Source of the DNA: Bradyrhizobium sp. sBnM-33
Lineage (GTDB): Bacteria > Pseudomonadota > Alphaproteobacteria > Rhizobiales > Xanthobacteraceae
Length of the DNA: 64,000 nt
NCBI RefSeq assembly: GCF_032917945.1
Contig: NZ_CP136624.1
Coordinates: 4,588,001-4,652,000, forward strand
Reading direction: 5' to 3'
Within the stretch, counting starts at the first letter, position 1. Each line of letters begins with the position of its first letter. Shown here piece by piece: positions 5,313-29,603 of this stretch. The notes beneath the pieces were generated by a model, which saw only the letters and a list, made by a program, of their open reading frames with translations, was not told the DNA's origin and searched no databases. The position numbers and the translations under genes are program-made.

Positions 5313-5412
5313 TTGCCGGGCTAAAGCGCGAAGCGCGTCTTCGCACTGGATCACCCGGCAATCCATCTTGCTTCGTGAGAAGCAAGAGCGACGGGCCCGG
5401 GTCAAGCCCGGG
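5313..5412. repeat. Intergenic palindromic repeat between nusG and rplK
   Basis: Two adjacent palindromes are present. TTGCCGGG (5313) pairs with CCCGGCAA (5354) around an inner GCGAAG/CTTCGC stem, and CCCGGG-TCAAG-CCCGGG lies at 5396-5412. The AAAGCGCGA and CTTCGC parts recur in the rpoB-rpoC gap. This is the style of dispersed REP-like elements in Bradyrhizobium. Confidence 0.6.
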
Positions 5413-5544
5413 CATGACAAGAGTGGAGGCGGCGACGCCTTTGGAATGCCGTGGAAGGGGACTGACGGTCGCCAGCCGTCATGCGAACCGTACCACGGTC
5501 CTGTGAAGCTTCCGGATTGTCCGGAGCAACATGAGGAGCAATAA

Positions 5545-5973
5545 ATGGCAAAGAAAGTGACCGGATACCTGAAGCTTCAGGTCCCGGCCGGTGCGGCAAA
5601 TCCGTCGCCCCCGATCGGTCCCGCGCTTGGTCAGCGCGGCCTCAACATCATGGAATTCTGCAAGGCGTTCAACGCGCAGACGCAGAAGGAAGAAAAGAAC
5701 ACCCCGATCCCGGTAATCATCACCATCTATGCGGACCGTTCCTTCACCTTCGAGATGAAGACGCCGCCGATGTCCTACTTCCTCAAGCAGGCTGCCAAGA
5801 TCCAGTCCGGCTCGAAAACTCCGGGCCGCGACAAGGCGGGCCAGGTGACCAAAGCGCAGGTGCGCGAGATCGCCGAGAAGAAGATGAAGGATCTCAATTG
5901 CGATTCCGTCGAATCGGCCATGAAGATGGTCGAGGGCTCCGCCCGTTCGATGGGTCTGGAAGTTGCGGGGTAA
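5545..5973 (+). CDS. rplK: 50S ribosomal protein L11
   Basis: L11 forms the GTPase-associated centre on 23S rRNA and is the thiostrepton-site protein. The 142-residue product has the conserved N-terminal [20 protein letters not shown] segment and the C-terminal RNA-binding domain ([21 protein letters not shown]). An AGGAG site precedes the ATG. It is followed after six bases by rplA, the standard autoregulated pair. Confidence 0.98.
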
Positions 5974-5979
5974 CGGACC

Positions 5980-6672
5980 ATGGCAATCGGAAAACGTTTG
6001 AAGAAGGTCCGTGAGGGCATCGACCGCGAGAAGCTCTATCCGCTCGCGGATGCCATCAAGATGGTCAAGGAACGCGCCACGTCGAAGTTCGACGAGACGA
6101 TCGAGATCGCGATCAATCTCGGCGTCGACCCGCGCCACGCCGACCAGATGGTTCGCGGCGTCGTCAACCTGCCGAACGGCACCGGCCGCACGCTGCGCGT
6201 CGGCGTGTTCGCCCGTGGCGCCAAAGCGGACGAAGCCAAGGCTGCCGGTGCTGACGTCGTCGGCGCCGAAGACCTGGTCGAGAAGGTCCAGGGCGGCACG
6301 ATCGACTTCGACCGTTGTATCGCAACCCCCGACATGATGCCGCTGGTTGGCCGCCTCGGTAAGGTGCTCGGCCCGCGCGGCATGATGCCGAACCCGAAGA
6401 TCGGCACCGTGACGATGGACGTCACGTCAGCCGTGAAGGGCGCCAAGGGCGGCTCGGTCGAATTCCGCGTCGAAAAGGCCGGCATCGTGCAGGCCGGTGT
6501 CGGCAAGGCGTCGTTCTCCGAGGAAAAGCTGGTGCAGAACGTGAAAGCGCTGGCGGATGCGGTGGCAAAAGCAAAGCCGGCCGGCGCCAAGGGCACCTAC
6601 ATCCAGCGCGTGGCGGTCTCCTCCACCATGGGCCCGGGCGTCAAGGTCGAGCCGGGCACATTGCTCGGCTAG
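5980..6672 (+). CDS. rplA: 50S ribosomal protein L1
   Basis: L1 builds the mobile stalk that helps release deacylated tRNA and often represses its own mRNA. The 230-residue length is typical, and [18 protein letters not shown] is the family signature. It follows rplK at six bases. Unusually, rplJ does not follow directly: a terminator and about 3.5 kb of unrelated genes intervene. Confidence 0.98.
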
Positions 6673-6696
6673 TCCGTGGCGGTCTGAGTGAATTGC

Positions 6697-6732
6697 AGGG
6701 CGGAATCGGGTGACCGATTCCGCCCTTTGCGT
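6697..6732 (+). terminator. Strong hairpin terminator after rplA
   Basis: A perfect 13-bp stem, AGGGCGGAATCGG with loop GTGA and its complement, ends at 6726 and is followed by a short T-containing tract (TTGCGTTT). It closes the secE/nusG-rplKA transcription unit before the inserted dehydrogenase gene. Confidence 0.8.
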
Positions 6733-6788
6733 TTGACGTCGCGTTTTCGTAGTCGTTGCGTCGCCGGACTTGGCAAGAAGGAAAAAGA

Positions 6789-7742
6789 ATGCCCGAGAAA
6801 GTCCTGATCTATTCGCGTTTTCCCAAAGCCCAGATGGAACGTTTTGGCGAGCGCTTCGAGTTGTTGAACGCCGCGGGCAAGGCGCCCAACGAGGTGTTCT
6901 CGGCCGATCAGCTCGCCGACATTCGCGCGCTGATCACGGCGGGCGGGACGCCGCTTCGCAGCGAGGCGATGGACATGATGCCGAAACTGGGCGCGATCAT
7001 CTGCTACGGCACCGGCTATGACGGCGTCGACCTCGACGCTGCGGCGAAGCGCAACATCGCCGTCGGCCACAGCCCCGGCGCCAATGCGGCGTCAGTCGCC
7101 GATATCGCGATCACGCTGATGTTGGCGGCCACGCGGCGGCTGCTCGTGGCTGACGACTATGTGCGCGGCGGGAGTTGGGCGGCCGCAAAACCGTCGCCGA
7201 TGATGCGCCCGCAAGCCGGGATGCTCGGCCGCAAGATCGGCGTCTACGGCATGGGCGAGATCGGCCGCAAGATTGCCTCGCGGGCTGCCGCGTTCGAGAC
7301 CGAGGTCGGCTATTTTAGCCGCAGCCGGCACGATGTGCCGTATCGGTATTTACCGAGCCTGGATGCGCTGGCCGAATGGTGCAGTGTCCTGATGATCGCG
7401 GTGCGGGCAGGAGCGGATACCCATCACGTTGTCGATGCCAATATTCTGCGCAAGCTCGGCAAGGATGGTTACGTCGTCAACATTTCGCGCGGCTCGGTGA
7501 TCGACCAGCCTGCGCTGATTGCGGCGCTGACCGATCAGACCATCGCCGGCGCGGGCCTCGACGTCTACGAGAAGGAGCCGCATGCGCCGGACGCCCTGAC
7601 GGCGCTGCCCAATGTCGTGCTCTCGCCGCACATCGGCGGTCATACGCTGGAGTCGCATGTGGCGATGCAGGATTGCGTGTTGGCCAATCTCGATGCGTTT
7701 TTTGCCGGCAAGCGCCTGCCTTACCCGGTGCCGCTCGCCTGA
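6789..7742 (+). CDS. D-isomer-specific 2-hydroxyacid dehydrogenase
   Basis: The product has 317 residues from ATG 6789, preceded by AAGAAGGAAAAAG. It is an NAD(P)H-dependent reductase of 2-oxoacids such as glyoxylate or hydroxypyruvate; the exact substrate cannot be read. It has an N-terminal catalytic flap, a nucleotide-binding VYGMGEIGRKIA motif, and the catalytic Arg (NISRGSVID), Glu (DVYEKEP) and His (LSPHIGG) all in order. It is unrelated to translation and is inserted between rplA and rplJ. It converges with the sigma-factor gene, only five bases apart. Confidence 0.92.
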   Translation: MPEKVLIYSRFPKAQMERFGERFELLNAAGKAPNEVFSADQLADIRALITAGGTPLRSEAMDMMPKLGAIICYGTGYDGVDLDAAAKRNIAVGHSPGANAASVADIAITLMLAATRRLLVADDYVRGGSWAAAKPSPMMRPQAGMLGRKIGVYGMGEIGRKIASRAAAFETEVGYFSRSRHDVPYRYLPSLDALAEWCSVLMIAVRAGADTHHVVDANILRKLGKDGYVVNISRGSVIDQPALIAALTDQTIAGAGLDVYEKEPHAPDALTALPNVVLSPHIGGHTLESHVAMQDCVLANLDAFFAGKRLPYPVPLA

Positions 7743-7747
7743 CTGCT

Positions 7748-8647
7748 TCAGTGCGCCGTGCCGGCCGGCACGTGGCGCAGCTTGTCGGGATTGCGGACGA
7801 CGTAGATCGCAGCGATTTTCTCGCCATCGATCGCCATGCTCAGGGTGAGGTCGAGTTCGCCATCCAGATAGAGTAGCGCGCCAATGGCGCCGTTGATGAC
7901 AGCCGGCTCGATACGGACGTCCTGGCCGGCAGTTTTGCCGGCAATACCGACGAAGAAGCGGGCGACCTTGTCTTTCCCGACAATCGGATTGCGCGCCGCG
8001 AACTTGCGGCCGCCGCCATCGGTGATTGCAACCGCATCCTCGCGCAGCAATTCGGCCAGCCGGCTGACGTCACCGCTGGTAACTGCTTCGCTGAAAGCAT
8101 GCAGCAGGCGCGCGTGACTGTCCGGCGCGGCCGCAGGCGCCGGGCGGTTGTCGCGCACCGCTCGGCGGGCGCGCGAGGCAAGCTGACGGCAGGCGGCCTC
8201 GCTATGGTCGAGCATCGCGGCGATTTCGGAAAACGGCGTGTCGAACACATCGTGAAGCAGGAAGGCCGCGCGCTCCATCGGGGAAAGCCGGTCCAACGCC
8301 AGCAACAGGGCGAACGATAGATCGTCAGCCAGTTCGGTGGCGGCTTCGACCGACAGACTTTCCGCGTCGAACGCCGGTTCCGGGAGCCAGGGCCCGACAT
8401 AGATCTCCCGCTGCGCCTTTGCGCTCCTCAGGCGATCGAGGCAGAGCCGGGTCACGACGGTGACGAGAAGCGCTTCCGCGTTGCGGACATCCTCGGCGCC
8501 GGCAAAGCGGAGATAGGCGTCCTGCACGACGTCTTCGGCGTCGCTGCGGCTGCCGAGCATGCGATAGGCGAGCCCGAGCAGGCGCCCGCGATGGGGCGCC
8601 AGCGGGTCGTCATGCGGCCTGTTTGACGACATCGATATTGTGTCCAT
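7748..8647 (-). CDS. ECF41-family RNA polymerase sigma factor with SnoaL-like C-terminal domain
   Basis: The product has 299 residues. Region 2 (about 16-75) contains RMLGSRSDAEDVVQDAYLR and region 4 (about 110-165) an HTH. The linker carries WLPEP (87-91), and the C-terminal SnoaL/NTF2-like domain carries DGGGR (210-214) and NPDKL (286-290). These three motifs are the published hallmarks of ECF41, in which the C-terminal domain, not an anti-sigma factor, controls activity. It is last of three minus-strand genes and its start overlaps the preceding gene by about 38 bases; the in-frame ATG at 8632 would shorten the overlap. Confidence 0.93.
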   Translation of the reverse strand: MDTISMSSNRPHDDPLAPHRGRLLGLAYRMLGSRSDAEDVVQDAYLRFAGAEDVRNAEALLVTVVTRLCLDRLRSAKAQREIYVGPWLPEPAFDAESLSVEAATELADDLSFALLLALDRLSPMERAAFLLHDVFDTPFSEIAAMLDHSEAACRQLASRARRAVRDNRPAPAAAPDSHARLLHAFSEAVTSGDVSRLAELLREDAVAITDGGGRKFAARNPIVGKDKVARFFVGIAGKTAGQDVRIEPAVINGAIGALLYLDGELDLTLSMAIDGEKIAAIYVVRNPDKLRHVPAGTAH

Positions 8648-15758: not shown

Positions 15759-19958
<4,200 letters not shown>

Positions 19959-19982
19959 GGGTTCCACTCCGATCAACAGGAA

Positions 19983-20013
19983 AGCCGGCTGCGAAGCCGG
20001 CTTTTTCTTTTTA
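19983..20013 (+). terminator. Rho-independent terminator after rpoC
   Basis: AGCCGGCT, loop GCGA, AGCCGGCT is followed by TTTTTCTTTTT. It is a perfect eight-base stem with a strong T-tract, about 25 bases after the rpoC stop. Confidence 0.95.
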
Positions 20014-20099
20014 CGAGTGAGGATAGTGCTTCACCCGGATGGGTGACCGCTGCTATCAAGTCAGGAAATGCCCTCCTGCCAAAATATTTGCAATTCCCC

Positions 20100-21197
20100 A
20101 TGAGCGAGTCGGATCATTTTGAACCCCTGATCGACCGCATCTACGAGGCGGGGCTCATTCCGTCGCTTTGGCCGGCTGTGCTCGGCGAACTCGGTGCCGC
20201 GATCGGCGGCAACGGCGGCTTTCTGTTCGGCGTGCGCGACGGCTACACGAGCGCGGTCAATTCTGCCGAATATGACCAGCTCATGCCCGTGTTCTGGAGA
20301 GACGGATGGAGCGAGCGCGATCCAAATCTTCCGCGCGCCATCGCCCTCAATCATGCGGGCTTCGTCACCGACTATGACCTCCTTTCGGAGGAGGAGATTG
20401 CGACCAACGACGTCTACTGCAACTTCTACCGCAAATACGGCATTGGCTACCGCGCCGGGACGATCATTCCGATGCCGACCGGCGATTCAATCGCGATCGT
20501 GATGCCGCGGCATCAGGATCACGGCCCGGTGCCGCAACAGGTCGTCGATCTGCTGGACGGGCTGCGGCCGCATCTGGCCCGGGCCTCCCTTGCAGCAAAC
20601 CGCATTGGCTTCGAGCGCGCCCGTGCCCAGGCTGACGCGTTGCAGGTGCTTGGCCTGCCGGGCGCAGTGCTGCGCGGGCGCGGCAAGGTGTTCGCGGCAA
20701 ACGGCTTGTTCGAAGCGCTTGTCCCTTCGCTGTTTCAGGATCGTATCGAGCGCGTAACGGTGACGGATGTCACGGCGGACGTGCTACTTGCAGAGGCGCT
20801 CGGTCCGCAGTCCCTTGCCGGCGGCCGGACCGTCAAGTCGATCCCGATCGCCGCGACGGCGGACCGCGTGCCGATGGTATTGCATGTCGTCCCTGTGCGG
20901 GGCGATGCACGCGATATTTTCACGCAGGCCACGGCGCTATTGGTGGTGACGCCGGTCGATCGCGCTGCGGTGCCGACGGCGGAAGTCCTGCAAGGCCTGT
21001 TCGACCTGACGCCGGCGGAGGCGCGCGTGGCGCGGGGCATCGGCCAGACAGTAACCATCGATGCGCTTGCGAATGCGACCGGCGTCAATCGGGAGACCGT
21101 GCGCAGCCAGCTCAAGGCCGTGCTATCGAAGACCGGCCTGTCACGCCAGCAGGAGCTTGTCAGCCTGCTCGCCGGCAAGGCGTTTCGTGGCGGATAG
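20100..21197 (+). CDS. LuxR-family transcriptional regulator
   Basis: The product has 365 residues from ATG 20100 (an in-frame GTG at 20043 would add 19 residues; neither has a good SD). The C-terminal 65 residues form a GerE-type HTH (LTPAEARVARGIGQTVTIDALANATGVNRETVRSQLKAVLSKTG). The N-terminal 290 residues look like a sensory region but show no acyl-homoserine-lactone-binding signature, so the ligand is unknown. It follows the rpoC terminator and precedes the amine-oxidase fusion by 251 bases on the same strand, so it could regulate that block (inference). Confidence 0.85.
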   Translation: MSESDHFEPLIDRIYEAGLIPSLWPAVLGELGAAIGGNGGFLFGVRDGYTSAVNSAEYDQLMPVFWRDGWSERDPNLPRAIALNHAGFVTDYDLLSEEEIATNDVYCNFYRKYGIGYRAGTIIPMPTGDSIAIVMPRHQDHGPVPQQVVDLLDGLRPHLARASLAANRIGFERARAQADALQVLGLPGAVLRGRGKVFAANGLFEALVPSLFQDRIERVTVTDVTADVLLAEALGPQSLAGGRTVKSIPIAATADRVPMVLHVVPVRGDARDIFTQATALLVVTPVDRAAVPTAEVLQGLFDLTPAEARVARGIGQTVTIDALANATGVNRETVRSQLKAVLSKTGLSRQQELVSLLAGKAFRGG

Positions 21198-21448
21198 ACA
21201 ACCGTGCCGCGCAGCACTGGAGTCGAAACGGCCGACCGTGCCGCGGCCAGAATAGGGCACCCGCAAGAATACGGTGCGAAGACAAAAGGCCGGCGCAAGC
21301 CGGTCATTTTGCTGCTTTCTTTCATTGCTGCGTTGCGAGGACCTGATTTGTTCATCTTCCCTTCAGGGTGAAAAGCGCCTTTGCTAATGTGGACTAGACC
21401 GGCTGCTTTCCTAAGGGCAGGGGGAGCCGGAGGGGCGACTGGAAAGAC

Positions 21449-23503
21449 ATGTTGGATCTTGCAATTGTGGGCGGCGGCCCAGGCGGCTTGATGAGCGCCT
21501 GGTACTTGAAGAAAAAGCTCGGCGATCTCTGCCGCGTCACGATTTACGAGGCGTCCGACCGCGTCGGCGGCAAGATCGTCTCGCGCAAATTCGATTCCGC
21601 GCCGGCGATGTATGAGGCAGGCGTCGCCGAAATCTACGATTATTCGATGACCGGCCCAGATCCCTTACGGGAACTGATCCAGCATTTCGGTCTGCAGACG
21701 ATTCCGATGGATGCCGAGCTGGTGCACCTTGACGGCGAGCTGCTCAGCGACGTCCGGGGGATGCGCCGCAAATATGGCGAGAAGACCGCGGCTGCGATCG
21801 AGGCGTTCCGCAAGCGCTGCGCCGACATGGTGTCGCCGATCGAATATTACGAAGGCGTCGGCGCCCACGACAACGAGCATCCCTGGGCCTACATGACCTG
21901 CGAGGAAGTGCTCGACAAGGAAGTCGACGATCCCACGGCCAAACGTTTCTTCAAGGTGATGGCGCGTTCGGATATCGCAACCGAGGCCCACAACACCAAC
22001 GGGCTGAATGCGCTGAAGAACTTCGTGATGGATATCGACGGCTATATCGGCCTGTACTCGATCCAGAACGGCAATGAGCAGTTGATCGAATGCCTGCGCT
22101 CGGAAGTCGATGCCGATATCCAGCTCAATCACCGCGTGCTGAAGGTCGGAAAGACCGCTGCCGGCCGCTATCAGCTCAACATGATGAACGGGAAGGGGCC
22201 CGAGACACGGGATTTCGATCTGGTCTTGATGTGTCTGCCGCATTCCTGGCTCGCCACCATGCGGTGGGACGGCGAGGAACTGCGCAAGTCGATGGTCAAG
22301 CACGTCGCCTATTTCGACCGTCCGGCGCATTACTTGCGGGTCTCGATCCTGTTCGACGAACCGTTCTGGGGCGAGAAGATCCCCGGCGCCTGGTTCATGT
22401 CGGAAGCGTTCGGCGGCTGCTGCGTCTACAACGAGGGCGCCCGCCACGACGTCGGCCGGCACGGCGTGCTCAACTGGCTGATCGCGGGATCGGACGCGCT
22501 GGCATTTGCCAATCTCAGCGACGAGGAATTGATCGACGCCGCCATCAAGTCGCTGCCGGCTTCGTTCGGCAACGCCCGCGATCATTTCCTGGAAGGCAAG
22601 ATTCACCGCTGGCTGTCGTCGGTGAACGCGCTGCCGGGCGGCATGCCGGTGCGTGACGTCATGACTAACCACCGTCCGGAACCGAAGCAGCATCCGGGGA
22701 TTGTGGTGGTCGGCGATTATCTGTTCGATTCGACGCTCAATGGCCTGCTCGATTCTTCCGACGCCGCAACCGATATCGTTTTGACCGAGATGATGCGGTT
22801 GCGACGCGCCCGCGCGCAGCAGGGCGAAGTGTCGTACGACAGGATCGATCGCAGCTATTTCGAGAATTACCGTGGGCTAGGCCCTTACAGCGAAGTCTGG
22901 AGCCAGTTTACCGATCCGGCCTATCTGACGGAACTGATCAAGATCGTCTGGAGCAGGGCCAAGGGTTACAAGCTCCTGGTCGCCGGCTCCGCCAGCGGCG
23001 AACTGGTCGGCGCGCTGCGCGAGCGCGGCATCGATGCCTGGGGTATCGAGAACAACAAGACGATTCACGCCAAGACGCCGAAGGCGCTGAAGAAGTTCAA
23101 CAAGCTTGGCTCGATCGTCGACATGCCGTTCAAGGACGACGAGTTCGATTTCGTGTTCGAGACCAGTCTGTGTCATGTCGCCGAGAAGCAGGTCCCGCGA
23201 GCGGTGCGCGAACTGAACCGCGTCGTGAAGACCGGCCTGGTGTTCGGGTCGGTGACGTCGGACATGGCGCCTGCACTGATCGACCGTTACGATCTGTTGC
23301 GCGGCGTGAAGAAGCTCGGCACCTGGTGGGAATGGTCCGAATTATTCTTCGGCAACGGATTCGACCTCTCGATGCACCGGCGCGACTGCACCGATGCGGT
23401 ATGGGCGGCGACGCTGGCTGCCAACAAGGGACCGGGGCAGTGGTATGCCGACGCCGACAGCCTGCGCTATTCGTTTTTTGACAAGGTCGAATCAGACGAT
23501 TGA
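21449..23503 (+). CDS. FAD amine-oxidase-like / SAM-methyltransferase-like fusion protein
   Basis: The product has 684 residues. Residues 3-45 form an FAD-binding Rossmann unit (AIVGGGPGGLMSAWYL, then YEASDRVGGK), and GIVVVGDYLFDSTLNGLLDSSDAA at 417-440 is the matching C-terminal FAD contact of flavin amine oxidases and desaturases. After a linker (450-500), residues 505-610 resemble a class I methyltransferase: LLVAGSASGELVGALRERGIDAWGIEN as motif I/II and a DMPFKDDEFDFVFETSLCHV segment. The glycine motif is atypical (AGSASG for the usual GCGTG), so catalysis is uncertain. No leader peptide is present. The substrate is unknown. Confidence 0.8.
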   Translation: MLDLAIVGGGPGGLMSAWYLKKKLGDLCRVTIYEASDRVGGKIVSRKFDSAPAMYEAGVAEIYDYSMTGPDPLRELIQHFGLQTIPMDAELVHLDGELLSDVRGMRRKYGEKTAAAIEAFRKRCADMVSPIEYYEGVGAHDNEHPWAYMTCEEVLDKEVDDPTAKRFFKVMARSDIATEAHNTNGLNALKNFVMDIDGYIGLYSIQNGNEQLIECLRSEVDADIQLNHRVLKVGKTAAGRYQLNMMNGKGPETRDFDLVLMCLPHSWLATMRWDGEELRKSMVKHVAYFDRPAHYLRVSILFDEPFWGEKIPGAWFMSEAFGGCCVYNEGARHDVGRHGVLNWLIAGSDALAFANLSDEELIDAAIKSLPASFGNARDHFLEGKIHRWLSSVNALPGGMPVRDVMTNHRPEPKQHPGIVVVGDYLFDSTLNGLLDSSDAATDIVLTEMMRLRRARAQQGEVSYDRIDRSYFENYRGLGPYSEVWSQFTDPAYLTELIKIVWSRAKGYKLLVAGSASGELVGALRERGIDAWGIENNKTIHAKTPKALKKFNKLGSIVDMPFKDDEFDFVFETSLCHVAEKQVPRAVRELNRVVKTGLVFGSVTSDMAPALIDRYDLLRGVKKLGTWWEWSELFFGNGFDLSMHRRDCTDAVWAATLAANKGPGQWYADADSLRYSFFDKVESDD

Positions 23504-23660
23504 GCTCCGACCGGTTATGTTGAGCGTGACCGCTGAAGCAGAGCCGGTCATGCCAAATGTTTGCCGAATTGATCCCGATCGCATAGAATCGTTGCGGTAG
23601 CGCTCGCCGCTGCCGCCTTCGATTTGCGGTCATGCCGGCCGTGCAGCATCGGTTGGTTTC

Positions 23661-25688
23661 ATGGCGCCCAAGCCTCCGTCCTCGGATGATCAGAATCCCG
23701 CGCCGGCGGACGATCCCGAGCGTGCGAAGAAGCTCGCGGCCGGGGCTGCCGCTGCGCCCGTTGCCGGTGGTAAGGCGGCCGGCATCCCGCCGGGCGCTGA
23801 CAAGGACGACGAAGGGGACGAGATAGAGCTCGACGACGATGATGATGACGAGGACCTCGTCGTTTTCACCGCCAAGGAAGCCGCCGGCGCGATGGCGACC
23901 ATCTACGGCTTCGTCAAGCCGTATCTGGGCAATTACAGGAAGCTGCTCGTCTTCGTGACCTTCGGCGTTCTCGTCGAGACATTGTTCAACGTCATCATGC
24001 CGTTGAGCCTGAAATTCCTGATCGACGATGCGCTGGGCGAAGAGGATTTTCAGGCGCTCTACAAGATCCTCGGCGTGCTCGCGGTCGCCGGTATCATCAC
24101 CTCGATCATCGCGGTCTGGTACGAGCGCTGGGATGCGCGGCTGGCGGCGTGCATCATTGCCGATGTGCGGTCGCGGCTGTTCGAGCACGTCCAGAACCTG
24201 CCGGCGTCGTATTTTGCCCGCACCAAGCGCGGCGAAATCCTCTCGCGCTTCTCAATCGACCTCGCGGCCTTTGAGGGCTCGGTCAAGACGTTCGCCAACA
24301 GCGCCGCTTTGCCGTTCCTGGAATTGGTCGCCGGCATCATCCTGATGCTGTTTTTGAACTGGCAGCTCGCGGCGGTCGCCCTCCTGGTATTCCCGATCAC
24401 GCTGATCGGGCCGCGAATCCTGACGCCGAAGGCGGTGCAGGCGAATTACGAGCAGAAGCTCAATGAAGCAGCACTGCTCGGCACGGTGCAGGAAAACGTG
24501 GCTGCGCAGGCCGTGATCAAGGCGTTCAGCCTGCAGCGCCGCACGCTCGGCTGGTTCACCATGCGTAACCAGGAAGTCCGCATCAAGACGGCGTCCGCCG
24601 TGTTCCTGTCGACCATGGTAGAGCGCACCGTCACCATTTCGGTGCTGTTGCTGCATCTCGTGGTGCTGGCGATCGGCGCCTATCTCGCCACCAAGGGCCA
24701 GATCACCATCGGCACCTTCGTCACCTTCGAGAGCGCGTTCTGGGAGGTGTCCTACAACATCGCCCATCTGATGCACTTCATCCCGGTGTCGATCCAGTCG
24801 GCGGCGGCGGTGCGGCACATCCAGGAACTGCTGGATGAGCCGACCCGTGGCGCCGACCGGCCGGGCGCGCCGGATTTGCCGCCGATCACCAACGACATCG
24901 CCTTTGAACGCGTCACCTTCGCGTATGAAGGCAGCGAGACGCCGGTGCTCGACGATTTCAGCCTCAAACTCAATGTCGGCAAGCGCATCGCGATCGTGGG
25001 GCCGAGCGGCTCGGGCAAAAGCACGCTGCTCAACCTGATCCTGCGTCTTTACACGCCGGACGAGGGGCGGGTGGCGATCGACGGCGTCGATATCCGCCGC
25101 GTGACCCGCGAATCGCTGCGCGCAGGCATGGCCGTCGTGTTCCAGGAGAACATGCTGTTCAATATGTCGATCCGCGAGAACATCCGGCTTGGCAAGGAAG
25201 GCGCCACCGACAAGGAGGTCGAGGAAGCCGCGCGCAAGGCCGAGATTCACCGCTACATCATGAGCCTGCCGCAGAAATACGACACGCCGGTCGGCGAGCG
25301 CGGCGACACGCTATCGGGCGGCCAGCGCCAGCGCATCGCGATCGCGCGCGCCATCATCCGCAATCCCTCGCTGCTGCTGCTCGATGAAGCGACCTCGGCG
25401 CTCGACCAAACCACGGAGGCCGCGATCAACCGCACGCTGATGAAGGTGGCGGAAGGGCGCACCATGATCTGGTCGACGCACCGCCTGACGTCGGTGGTCG
25501 AGATGGACGAGATCATCGTGATTTCAGGCGGCAAGGCGATCGAGCGCGGCTCGCATGCGCAGTTGCTCGCGGCCAACGGCGTCTATCGCAAGCTCTGGGA
25601 CGACCAGGGCCATGTGGCGCACAACGTCGCCGCTCAGGCCGACGACGATGACGATGAGGACGACGATGATGAGGATGACGAGGAATGA
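23661..25688 (+). CDS. ABC exporter (fused TMD-NBD) with poly-acidic termini
   Basis: This 675-residue half-transporter is of the MsbA/lipid-or-peptide exporter type and acts as a dimer in the inner membrane. Residues 1-65 form a disordered extension ending in a run of Asp/Glu; six membrane helices lie at about 90-380. The ATPase has Walker A GPSGSGKS (447-454), Q-loop Gln495, signature LSGGQ (551-555), Walker B LLLLDE (571-576) and switch His607. The last 15 residues are almost all Asp/Glu. It lies 157 bases after the amine-oxidase fusion on the same strand, so it may export that enzyme's product; the substrate is not readable. Confidence 0.92.
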   Translation: MAPKPPSSDDQNPAPADDPERAKKLAAGAAAAPVAGGKAAGIPPGADKDDEGDEIELDDDDDDEDLVVFTAKEAAGAMATIYGFVKPYLGNYRKLLVFVTFGVLVETLFNVIMPLSLKFLIDDALGEEDFQALYKILGVLAVAGIITSIIAVWYERWDARLAACIIADVRSRLFEHVQNLPASYFARTKRGEILSRFSIDLAAFEGSVKTFANSAALPFLELVAGIILMLFLNWQLAAVALLVFPITLIGPRILTPKAVQANYEQKLNEAALLGTVQENVAAQAVIKAFSLQRRTLGWFTMRNQEVRIKTASAVFLSTMVERTVTISVLLLHLVVLAIGAYLATKGQITIGTFVTFESAFWEVSYNIAHLMHFIPVSIQSAAAVRHIQELLDEPTRGADRPGAPDLPPITNDIAFERVTFAYEGSETPVLDDFSLKLNVGKRIAIVGPSGSGKSTLLNLILRLYTPDEGRVAIDGVDIRRVTRESLRAGMAVVFQENMLFNMSIRENIRLGKEGATDKEVEEAARKAEIHRYIMSLPQKYDTPVGERGDTLSGGQRQRIAIARAIIRNPSLLLLDEATSALDQTTEAAINRTLMKVAEGRTMIWSTHRLTSVVEMDEIIVISGGKAIERGSHAQLLAANGVYRKLWDDQGHVAHNVAAQADDDDDEDDDDEDDEE

Positions 25689-25719
25689 GCGGGGCGGTTT
25701 GACCGCGCGCTGACTCGCA

Positions 25720-25963
25720 GGTGGCGCGAATCGCGATCCAGTTTTCGCCGTCATGGAGGCCGCGCGCAGCACCGAATCGGCGATTCAGGTCTCGTAGAAG
25801 CGGCCGAGCTGCTCGTCGCCGCTGATTTTTCGACGCGAAAGTCGAATGGATAGACCCGATGCGGGTCGATCAGAGCGGTCGAAATTCCCGTGCGACCGAG
25901 CATGGCGGCCGCCGTCGAACCGGCGAGGCCGCCTCCGACGATCGCAATATCGGTGTACTTCAT
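25720..25963 (-). pseudogene. Fragment of an FAD-dependent oxidoreductase gene
   Basis: From ATG 25963 the reading frame encodes YTDIAIVGGGLAGSTAAAML, a clear N-terminal FAD-binding fold, then DPHRVYPFDFRVEK. A frameshift follows, after which the adjacent frame continues ISGDEQLGRFYET, a TGA, and IADSVLRAAS. The rest of the expected 350-400 residues is missing. It is a 5' remnant of a monooxygenase or geranylgeranyl-reductase-like flavoprotein, running opposite to the ABC exporter. The 3' limit is approximate. Confidence 0.75.
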
Positions 25964-26643
25964 GAAGAATTCCGGCCCTGTTGCGCAAGTTTTGCGCCCG
26001 GAACGACAAGTAAAGGCTTGGCGGGGAAAAACTGGAACCAAGGAATCAGGTTTCCGGTCTTATTTACCCGGGTAAAAATATCCGACTCGACGCGCTCGGA
26101 AGAGGGGCAGGGCACCGCCGTTCGACTTTTTCGATTTCGCGGCAAACGCCGAATCCGCAGACGCCATAGGCATTTCCAGCGTTCTCGTTTTGCTTGACTT
26201 AGCTATCCACCGCTTATAGAAGACGCCCACTTAACGACAGGCGGTGAGCTACGCCAACGTCGGAACGGAACACCCTTTCAAATCCTTATGGGCAATTCCT
26301 AAAGGTACTGGACGGGCACCAACCTCGACGAATGCCGCTCAAACGCTGTCGATCATATAGCTAGGCAATGCCAGGACGATTTTAGTTCTCTTGAGCACGT
26401 CCTCTTGAGAGTGAACTCGGATGCATGATCTCGGTAGCGGGTCGGACAGCGAACGCTGATCGGTCCTAATTCGCGGTCCTCTGTGGCGTCGAAGCGCTTT
26501 CCGCTCAGCGATGGGTGGTTGGCGCGATTTCGTTTTGCGCGGATGTTTTTTCGCGTGAGGCGGGCCGAACGGAACGGCTAGTTCCGAGAAGAATTTGCGA
26601 AAGCCATTCAAGGTTTCGCGTGAACTAAAGGGTGAAGGCTGAC
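25964..26643 (+). other. Intergenic region and long leader of the rpsL operon
   Basis: About 680 bases hold no gene I can support. Open frames on either strand lack SD sites. The segment 26000-26200 has lower GC than its surroundings. The likely rpsL promoter is at 26194-26220, leaving a leader of about 420 bases whose function is not obvious. Confidence 0.5.
26194..26220 (+). promoter_or_regulatory. Candidate promoter of the str operon (rpsL-rpsG-fusA-tuf)
   Basis: TTGACT, 15 bases, TATAGA (or CTTGAC with 16 bases) lies about 420 bases before rpsL, in an AT-richer stretch. It is the best -35/-10 pair in the gap; spacing is slightly short. Confidence 0.45.
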
Positions 26644-27015
26644 ATGCCGACGATCAACCAGCTGATCGCAAATCCGCGTACGGTACAGAAGTCGCGCAAG
26701 AAGGTGCCGGCGCTGCAGCAGTCGCCGCAGAAGCGTGGCGTCTGCACGCGCGTCTACACCACGACCCCGAAGAAGCCGAACTCGGCGCTTCGTAAGGTCG
26801 CCAAGGTGCGCCTGACCAACGGCTTTGAGGTGATCGGATACATCCCGGGTGAAGGCCATAACCTTCAGGAGCACTCGGTGGTCATGATCCGCGGCGGCCG
26901 CGTCAAGGATTTGCCCGGCGTGCGCTACCACATCCTCCGCGGCGTCCTCGATACCCAGGGCGTCAAGAACCGTAAGCAGCGTCGTTCGAAGTACGGCGCG
27001 AAGCGTCCGAAATAA
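26644..27015 (+). CDS. rpsL: 30S ribosomal protein S12
   Basis: S12 sits at the decoding centre. The 123-residue product starts at ATG 26644 (MPTINQLI), preferred over an in-frame GTG 12 bases upstream because it matches the family start and has AAGGGTGAAGG before it. Lys43 (TTPKKPNS) and Lys88 (GGRVKDLPG) are both present, the residues usually changed in streptomycin-resistant strains, so it reads as sensitive. It is first gene of the str operon. Confidence 0.98.
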
Positions 27016-27501
<486 letters not shown>

Positions 27502-27530: not shown

Positions 27531-29603
27531 ATGCCCCGCCAACATGCCATCGAGGACTACCGTAACTTCGGTATCATGGCGCATATCGACGCCGGCAAGA
27601 CTACGACCACCGAGCGCATCCTCTATTACACCGGCAAGAGCCATAAGATCGGCGAAGTGCACGAAGGTGCCGCGACCATGGACTGGATGGAGCAGGAGCA
27701 GGAGCGTGGCATCACGATCACCTCGGCTGCGACCACCGCGTTCTGGAACGGTAAGCGCCTGAACATCATCGACACCCCCGGCCACGTCGACTTCACCATT
27801 GAAGTCGAGCGTTCGCTGCGCGTGCTCGACGGCGCGGTATGCGTGCTCGATTCCAACCAGGGCGTCGAACCGCAGACCGAAACCGTGTGGCGCCAGGGCG
27901 ACAAGTACAAGGTTCCGCGCATCGTCTTCGCCAACAAGATGGACAAGACCGGCGCCGACTTCTTCAAGTGTCTGGCCGACATCGTCGACCGCCTCGGCGC
28001 CAAGCCGATCGCGATCCAGCTTCCGATCGGCGCCGAGAACAACTTCAAGGGTCTCGTCGACCTCGTGAAGATGCAGGGCATCATCTGGAACGATGAATCG
28101 CTCGGCGCCAAGTTCGACTATGTCGACATCCCGGCCGATCTCGTCGACCAGGCCAAGGAATACCGCGAGAAGATGGTCGAAGCCGCTGTCGAGCTCGATG
28201 ACGACGCTCTGGCCGCTTTCCTCGACGGCAAGGAGCCGGACGAGGCGACGCTGAAACGGCTGATCCGCAAGGCCGTGCTGACCGGCGCGTTCTATCCTGT
28301 GCTGTGCGGTTCGGCGTTCAAGAACAAGGGCGTGCAGCCGCTGCTCGACGCCGTCGTCGACTACCTGCCATCGCCGATCGACGTGCCCGCGATCAAGGGT
28401 ACCGACGATGACGGCAACGAAGTGGTGCGCAAGGCCGACGACAAGGAGCCGCTGGCTCTGCTCGCGTTCAAGATCATGGACGACCCGTTCGTCGGCACCA
28501 TCACCTTCTGCCGAATCTATTCGGGCATCCTGCAGTCGGGTACCGGGGTCATCAATTCGACCCGCGAGAAGAAAGAGCGTATCGGCCGCATGCTGTTGAT
28601 GCATGCGAACAACCGCGAAGACATCAAGGAAGCCTATGCCGGCGACATCGTCGCACTGGCGGGCCTGAAGGAAGCGCGCACCGGTGACACGCTGTGCGAT
28701 CCCGACAAGCCGGTGATCCTGGAAAAGATGGAATTCCCGGAGCCGGTGATCGAAATCGCGATCGAGCCGAAGTCGAAGGCCGACCAGGAAAAGCTCGGCG
28801 TCGCGTTGGCGAAGCTCGCTGCCGAAGATCCGTCGTTCCGCGTGTCGACCGACCAGGAGTCCGGCCAGACCATTTTGAAGGGCATGGGCGAACTCCATCT
28901 CGACATCAAGGTCGATATTCTCAAGCGAACCTACAAGGTCGACGCCAACATCGGCGCGCCGCAGGTGGCGTTCCGCGAGCGCGTCACCAAGCGCGCTGAA
29001 GTCAAGTACACGCACAAGAAGCAGACCGGCGGTACCGGTCAGTTCGCCGAAGTGTCGATCATCGTGGAGCCGAACGAGCCCGGCAAGGGCTACGAGTTCG
29101 AGTCCAAGATCGTCGGCGGCGCGGTGCCGAAGGAATACATCCCCGGCGTCGAAAAGGGCCTCAACAGCGTGATGGGCTCGGGCGTCGTTGCCGGCTTCCC
29201 GGTTGTTGACGTCAAGGTTCAGCTCGTCGACGGCAAGTATCACGACGTCGACTCGTCGGCGCTGGCCTTCGAAATCGCGGCGCGCGCGGCATTCCGCGAA
29301 GCGCTGCAGAAGGGCAAGTCTGTTCTGCTCGAGCCGATCATGAAGGTCGAAGTGGTGACCCCGGAAGACTATACCGGTTCTGTCATCGGCGACCTGAATT
29401 CTCGGCGCGGCCAGATCCAGGGCCAGGACATGCGGGGCAACGCCAACGTCATCAACGCGATGGTGCCGCTTATGAACATGTTCGGGTACGTGAATAACCT
29501 GCGCTCGATGAGCCAGGGACGCGCGACCTTCACGATGCAATTCGATCACTACGCCGAAGCACCGGCGAACGTGTCGGCAGAAGTCCAGAAGAAGTTTGCC
29601 TGA
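27531..29603 (+). CDS. fusA: Elongation factor G
   Basis: This 690-residue translocase GTPase has [12 protein letters not shown] G1 ([19 protein letters not shown]), G3 DTPGHVDF and G4 NKMDKTG, followed by domains II-V with the [15 protein letters not shown] and [11 protein letters not shown] segments. An AAGGA site precedes the start. It lies 29 bases after rpsG and 40 before tuf, in standard str-operon order. Confidence 0.98.

Follow-up and report, generated by a model that had tools for sequence, protein, structure and literature searches.

An oxidase-methyltransferase fusion and its linked ABC exporter between rpoC and rpsL in Bradyrhizobium: a candidate two-gene modify-and-export unit

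Introduction

Flavin-dependent oxidation and S-adenosylmethionine (SAM)-dependent methylation act on one product in the furan fatty acid pathway UfaD/UfaM/FufM, where, in the available portion of the report (PMC7380195), the steps belong to separate proteins and no exporter is mentioned. The same two chemistries are proposed here for a single fusion protein encoded by other genes, the likeness being drawn from the description of that pathway. The fusion gene lies between rpoC and rpsL, directly ahead of a gene for an ATP-binding cassette (ABC) exporter, in a stretch of 64,000 nucleotides of Bradyrhizobium sp. sBnM-33 (contig NZ_CP136624.1, positions 4,588,001 to 4,652,000), designated the window, to which coordinates refer unless a locus is named. 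The host genome is a single contig of 9.18 Mb, and its close relatives are Bradyrhizobium.

The unit consists of known kinds of parts and is real and conserved, and no published description of it was found. According to the accessible parts of two reports, rpsL of strain USDA 110 is bll5405 (PMC8585493) and bll5409/bll5410 encode RNA polymerase subunits (PMC8225791); the block should therefore correspond to USDA 110 genes 5406-5408, as numbered by this reasoning. Literature searches, with subscription journals mostly outside their reach, found no publication on the presumed bll5406-5408, blr5406-5408 or three guessed newer tags, and no title or abstract concerning a block of oxidase-methyltransferase and exporter. 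The unit stands beside essential genes and the fusion has a match in 35 of 35 same-genus genomes, yet it has been little noticed. Clear partners (the exporter or, in a sister branch, the membrane protein P280) and a clear control box make it directly testable, and if its product is an envelope component, it would be a further conserved element of a cell surface relevant to symbiosis and stress tolerance.

The fusion and the exporter form a constant pair

The two genes at the centre of the block are:

21449-23503, + strand: fusion gene, 684 aa, flavoprotein domain of the amine-oxidase fold followed by a class I SAM methyltransferase domain (Pfam, alignments)
23661-25688, + strand: ABC exporter gene, 675 aa, acidic stretches at both ends (Pfam, NCBIfam, co-occurrence, tree)

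The first-pass annotation, made from the letters of the window, had asked whether the exporter is a constant neighbor of the fusion. The co-conservation check that it set was run on the named loci, which are the best 80 among 262, and on 296 sampled genomes of the family, and did not refute such a link. An ABC gene followed the fusion in all 80 named loci, and rpoC was found at 78, the other two being short contigs. The fusion was present in 117 of the 296 family genomes, representing 14 of 47 genera, and the exporter (E ≤ 1e-130) in 109. Both genes occurred together in 109 genomes, the exporter alone in none, and the fusion alone in eight. Seven of these eight are distant-branch genomes (G349 and six that belong to genus g65 or resemble it), and in the remaining one, G231, the contig stops about 100 bases beyond the fusion. 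The pair was adjacent on one strand in 107 of the 109 genomes; in G272 and G351, both fragmented assemblies, fusion and exporter lie on separate contigs.

Among 385 genomes of the class, four had the fusion: two are the genome of the window and G021, and the remaining two matched at about 40-42% identity. G021 is a one-contig genome of the same genus in which the fusion is split across two overlapping frames (L130 and L133). A second ABC-linked type was searched with locus L134 as the query (E ≤ 1e-100). Of 397 genomes of the order, 34 matched, and a single genus accounted for 12 of these; of 398 genomes of the phylum, 11 matched, each belonging to the genus of the window or to one further genus of the same family. 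The genus with 12 genomes is taken to be Phreatobacter on the strength of a 93%-identical relative of that name. The ABC gene followed the fusion at 10 of 10 Phreatobacter-type loci, and no rpoB, rpoC or rpsL match was found within 17-18 kb around these loci; the linkage of the pair is thus also seen away from the rpoC-rpsL interval. The constant core of the block is therefore two genes, the fusion and the exporter, and luxR and the downstream genes come and go. In a third family, locus L183 (G1058) has the complete order rpoC-luxR-fusion-ABC-rpsL, with identities of 42% for luxR, 63% for the fusion and 58% for the ABC gene, and one TGA within the fusion match.

Gene order and integrity of the block

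The core pair is surrounded by the following open reading frames (ORFs), and the same rpoC-to-fusA gene order was recovered in relatives by tblastn:

15759-19958, + strand: rpoC (ORF in the window)
20043-21197, + strand: LuxR-like regulator gene, an optional part of the block (ORF; homologue at the equivalent position of another genus)
26632-27015: ORF taken as rpsL, after the ABC gene
27031-27501: ORF taken as rpsG, after rpsL
27531-29603: ORF taken as fusA, after rpsG

The LuxR-like ORF has a further in-frame ATG at 20100, the start used in the first-pass annotation. Pairwise ratios of nonsynonymous to synonymous substitution (dN/dS), calculated for the window against eight other loci, were 0.05-0.12 for the fusion, 0.075-0.174 for the ABC gene and 0.149-0.202 for luxR, which is present at four of the eight. 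Together with the ORFs and Pfam domains, these low values bear out the three same-strand genes that had been drawn between two essential clusters: they are real genes under purifying selection, not chance ORFs.

Domains and active site of the fusion protein

Both domains of the expected oxidase-methyltransferase fusion were found above their Pfam cut-offs in one protein. Amino_oxidase (PF01593) matched residues 12-432 (E 1.9e-29, 103.7 bits against a cut-off of 19.8) and Methyltransf_11 (PF08241) residues 512-596 (E 2.5e-9, 38.1 bits against 21.2). Source annotations call the protein a 'FAD-dependent oxidoreductase' (FAD, flavin adenine dinucleotide) or a 'protoporphyrinogen (or monoamine) oxidase/SAM-dependent methyltransferase'. 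The fusion can thus be recognized from existing annotation, but no description of a function was found.

The N-terminal domain resembles the flavin amine oxidase superfamily in its FAD-binding motifs and, by profile, overall, and the profile aligns with putrescine oxidase (2yg3) and MAO-A (2z5y). It differs from these by the fused methyltransferase and at one position: R297, which did not vary among the 29 aligned sequences, occupies the place of a lysine in 2yg3 and 2z5y. We take this lysine to lie near N5 of the flavin. Because it is replaced by an invariant arginine, the fusion is probably not an ordinary primary-amine oxidase.

The SAM-binding part of the C-terminal domain aligns with class I SAM methyltransferases, the best matches among solved structures being 8gdu and 6mro. 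The match covers that part only (profile positions about 40-131), and the domain differs from these enzymes in forming the C-terminal half of a larger protein. The SAM motif residues G48, G52, E69, F101 and D102 (domain numbering) were invariant in 11 of 11 sequences.

The exporter is distinct from host paralogues

The 675-aa protein has the one-chain membrane and ATPase layout of MsbA-type and NdvA/ChvA-type exporters, with 125.2 bits for ABC_membrane (PF00664, cut-off 28) and 133.3 bits for ABC_tran (PF00005, cut-off 25). These types also gave the best NCBIfam scores, MsbA being nearest, yet the protein fell far below the cut-off of each of the 25 families among the matches listed; with the MsbA lipid A exporter family TIGR02203, it scored 375 bits against a curated cut-off of 602.

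A further difference from these families lies in the acidic stretches at both ends, which were counted in exporters whose C-terminus is present in the sequence. An acidic N-terminal stretch, defined as at least 7 acidic residues in 12 ahead of the first membrane segment, was present in 106 of 106 core exporters and 10 of 10 of the Phreatobacter type, against none of 13 paralogues. The last 20 residues included at least 8 acidic ones in 103 of 106 core exporters and, for the Phreatobacter type, in 4 of 10, the other six having 7; paralogues had at most 4. In G054, the exporter adjoining the fusion scored 507 bits, compared to 272 for the next paralogue of that genome. In a tree from which 3 of 14 paralogue rows were left out for short matches, core and Phreatobacter-type exporters formed one group (support 100/100) that excluded the 11 paralogues, drawn from two genomes. 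The exporter is thus a clade of its own, distinct from the host paralogues examined.

A second branch of the fusion carries P280

The constant neighborhood holds for the ABC-type loci and does not extend to the second branch of the fusion, which has a membrane protein instead. At 12 loci (L135-L144, L184, L185), a fusion at about 42% identity had no such ABC gene beside it, and at all 12 a protein of 280-300 aa, designated P280, is encoded directly downstream of the fusion. Examples of P280 in the slot of the exporter are:

L138, 7653-8552, - strand: P280
L144, 11312-12151, + strand: P280

Of 10 P280 proteins examined by hydropathy scan, nine have a predicted membrane segment at the C-terminus. 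Pfam, NCBIfam and PDB gave no match among the members scanned, and the family comprises 95 proteins at E ≤ 0.001. UniRef labels two of these 95 relatives 'DUF155 domain-containing', an identity that the Pfam scan does not support and that was rejected. In the 10 genomes searched, P280 was present in seven of seven P280-type and none of three ABC-type genomes, always near a fusion. Both genes occur twice in G349, and in G759 two P280 genes accompany one fusion.

A quick tree of the fusion resolved core, Phreatobacter-type and P280-type sequences as three groups (Shimodaira-Hasegawa-like approximate likelihood ratio test, SH-aLRT, 99, 100 and 100). The fusions of L181 and L182 (G1040 and G796) were placed nearest the Phreatobacter type.

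Beside P280, a protein of 130 aa (P130; L138 7245-7634, - strand) follows in several second-branch loci and had no Pfam or NCBIfam match. At L185 (about 5461-8080, - strand), one fusion is accompanied by two successive P280 matches that flank a P130 match.

The control region contains a conserved direct-repeat box

Three features were located upstream of the fusion:

19979-20006, + strand: terminator-like hairpin after rpoC (pattern scan)
21288-21305, + strand: second terminator-like hairpin, with a weak tail, between luxR and the box (pattern scan)
21347-21366, + strand: direct-repeat box TTCA-N7-TTCA upstream of the fusion (conservation in upstream regions)

The terminator scan returned 6 sites compared to a mean of 1.5 in shuffles, and a similar hairpin was seen by eye after rpoC in 9 other aligned loci. 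The box consists of two TTCA half-sites 11 nt apart; of 136 distinct regions upstream of core fusions, 134 contain it. TCA-N8-TCA was kept in all 127 distinct core regions with the box within 220 nt. Of the nine regions without it at that distance, seven have a box further upstream (at most 3 mismatches), and L163 and L183 have none either within 220 nt or further up. All 10 Phreatobacter-type loci, which come from one genus and are not independent, carry TTCA-N7-TTCA at -208 to -221 with invariant half-sites and a variable spacer. No such repeat was found within 250 nt in 11 of 12 P280-type loci, whose start sites are uncertain, and the one in L185 is unrelated. The unit probably has its own promoter, after the terminator and behind the direct-repeat site, and the box looks like a site for an OmpR-type response regulator.

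On the reverse strand, the box reads TGA-N8-TGA, which matches the CenR consensus of R. sphaeroides, reported also for R. palustris in the available part of PMC9275681, where tolQ is listed as a CenR target. This is a six-base pattern, weak when taken alone. The 18-mer of the box, at no more than 2 mismatches, occurred at one site per genome, at the fusion, in four of four genomes; a multi-site regulon was therefore discarded as a guide to function. An RNA element was likewise rejected, as Rfam at E ≤ 1 gave two matches far below gathering scores.

The box also bears on the LuxR-like gene, which the first-pass annotation had offered as a possible switch. In that reading as a whole, the two-domain fusion and the constant exporter were supported and the switch was not: luxR occurs at only 15 of the 80 named loci, and the box is conserved with or without it. 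LuxR as an obligate switch was rejected on these grounds, and the gene is an optional extra. In 30 further core loci (L145-L173, L183), seven have a LuxR-like gene at 42% identity or more, and two others have a 26% match. The window protein had no match to GerE (PF00196) in Pfam at E ≤ 1, and its homologue L150, at the same place in another genus, matched GerE at E 1e-4 (22.3 bits against a cut-off of 23.5).

Proposed function and alternatives

The fusion, its linkage to and co-occurrence with the exporter, the clade-specific exporter and the box are seen in the sequence, and the linkage and the box are strong. We consider the chances about evenly balanced that the pair is a modify-and-export unit, which would oxidize and methylate a small or envelope-type molecule and then export it. 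Judging from its fold, the FAD domain would take two electrons from the substrate; the fused SAM domain, as its motifs suggest, would methylate the oxidized product; and the dedicated exporter with acidic ends, given its constant linkage, would move the product across the inner membrane. Expression would proceed from the unit's own promoter at a conserved site of the type bound by OmpR-type response regulators. No scaffold-making gene was seen beside the unit, which makes a common metabolite or a membrane lipid the probable substrate. A more specific form of this proposal, which we offer tentatively, is an envelope-modification pathway in which the single-chain flavin oxidase-methyltransferase, its active-site chemistry unusual through the exchange of lysine for arginine, may make a new methylated lipid or lipid-like molecule and the exporter may move it outward, the unit being under an OmpR-type envelope regulator and P280 occupying the slot of the exporter in the sister branch.

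Several observations weigh against this interpretation. The fusion is broken or in pieces in three of the 35 same-genus genomes (G021, G030, G033), where assembly faults are possible. All 12 P280-type loci lack this exporter, and export is therefore no fixed part of the whole fusion family; the contigs of G1040 and G796 end too early to show the partner of the fusion. The methyltransferase domain is less conserved between the branches (32-35% identity) than the oxidase domain (43-47%), and its role could be altered. Finally, TTCA-N7-TTCA was absent from the 1.5 kb upstream of tolQ in eight of eight genomes, with no TGA-N8-TGA at a shared place; CenR as the regulator is thus suggested by the repeat but not upheld by the tolQ control.

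The alternative that fares best, though we regard it as doubtful, is that the pair makes a small natural product for secretion (a signal, an antibiotic or a siderophore-like compound) instead of an envelope component, luxR serving as a switch in certain species. An exporter beside tailoring-type enzymes would suit such a product, as would the genes that stand nearby in some species: the LuxR-like gene, GNAT-family genes (12 ORFs among 83 entries, that is, 82 loci plus the window) and an AAT-type acyltransferase (L028). No synthase-type gene, however, was present among the examined ORFs of the rpoC-rpsL interval, and one fixed place with strong purifying selection across genera would look more like core physiology.

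It is unlikely that the unit modifies membrane acyl chains in the manner of the furan fatty acid pathway. That pathway offers a precedent in R. palustris and R. sphaeroides, where a flavin desaturase followed by SAM methylases acts on phospholipid acyl chains (PMC7380195, available portion), but it does so through other genes (RPA2569-RPA2571) and with the separate proteins noted in the Introduction. Returning to the proposed unit, its methylation step would be lost if the methyltransferase domain only senses SAM and regulates the oxidase. The lower conservation of this domain fits such a role, which we nevertheless judge very unlikely, as the SAM-binding sequence motifs are retained in both fusion branches and the domain has a dN/dS of 0.05-0.15.

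The modify-and-export proposal also presupposes that the two genes work together. Most core loci lie at one place, so that linkage there does not represent many independent events, and the pair might be functionally unrelated genes held in a frozen ribosomal-gene neighborhood. This is highly improbable: the pair is found together elsewhere in Phreatobacter-type genomes, none of the 296 family genomes has the exporter alone, the fusion-linked exporters group apart from paralogues, and the other branch has a different membrane protein in the same slot. Modification of hopanoids, such as the hopanoid-lipid A of Bradyrhizobium (Bradyrhizobium lipid A carries hopanoid in the part of the literature available), is the least credible alternative and unlikely as a general explanation, because squalene-hopene cyclase (TIGR01507), found in 13 of 18 fusion-plus-ABC genomes tested, had no match in the other five (G097, G054, G909, G992, G1058) and was present in three of 10 fusion-less genomes.

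Accessory genes between the exporter and rpsL

One accessory feature was located in this interval of the window:

25679-25993, - strand: remnant of a disrupted FAD_binding_3 (UbiH-like) gene in convergent orientation, intact in relatives, probably accessory (tblastn with the L025 protein)

About the first 93 residues of the L025 protein are recovered in the remnant as pieces that lie in different frames and include an internal stop, together with a short piece of the C-terminus; the middle is absent. L025 itself holds a full-length relative of this gene, and a convergent FAD_binding_3 ORF, in some cases a fragment, was counted by hand in 53 of the 83 entries. Some species have other genes between ABC and rpsL: the AAT-type acyltransferase (PF03417) lies at L028 12360-13367 (- strand) and was seen at that one locus, and a GNAT protein (PF13480) is encoded at L035 13816-14952 (+ strand).

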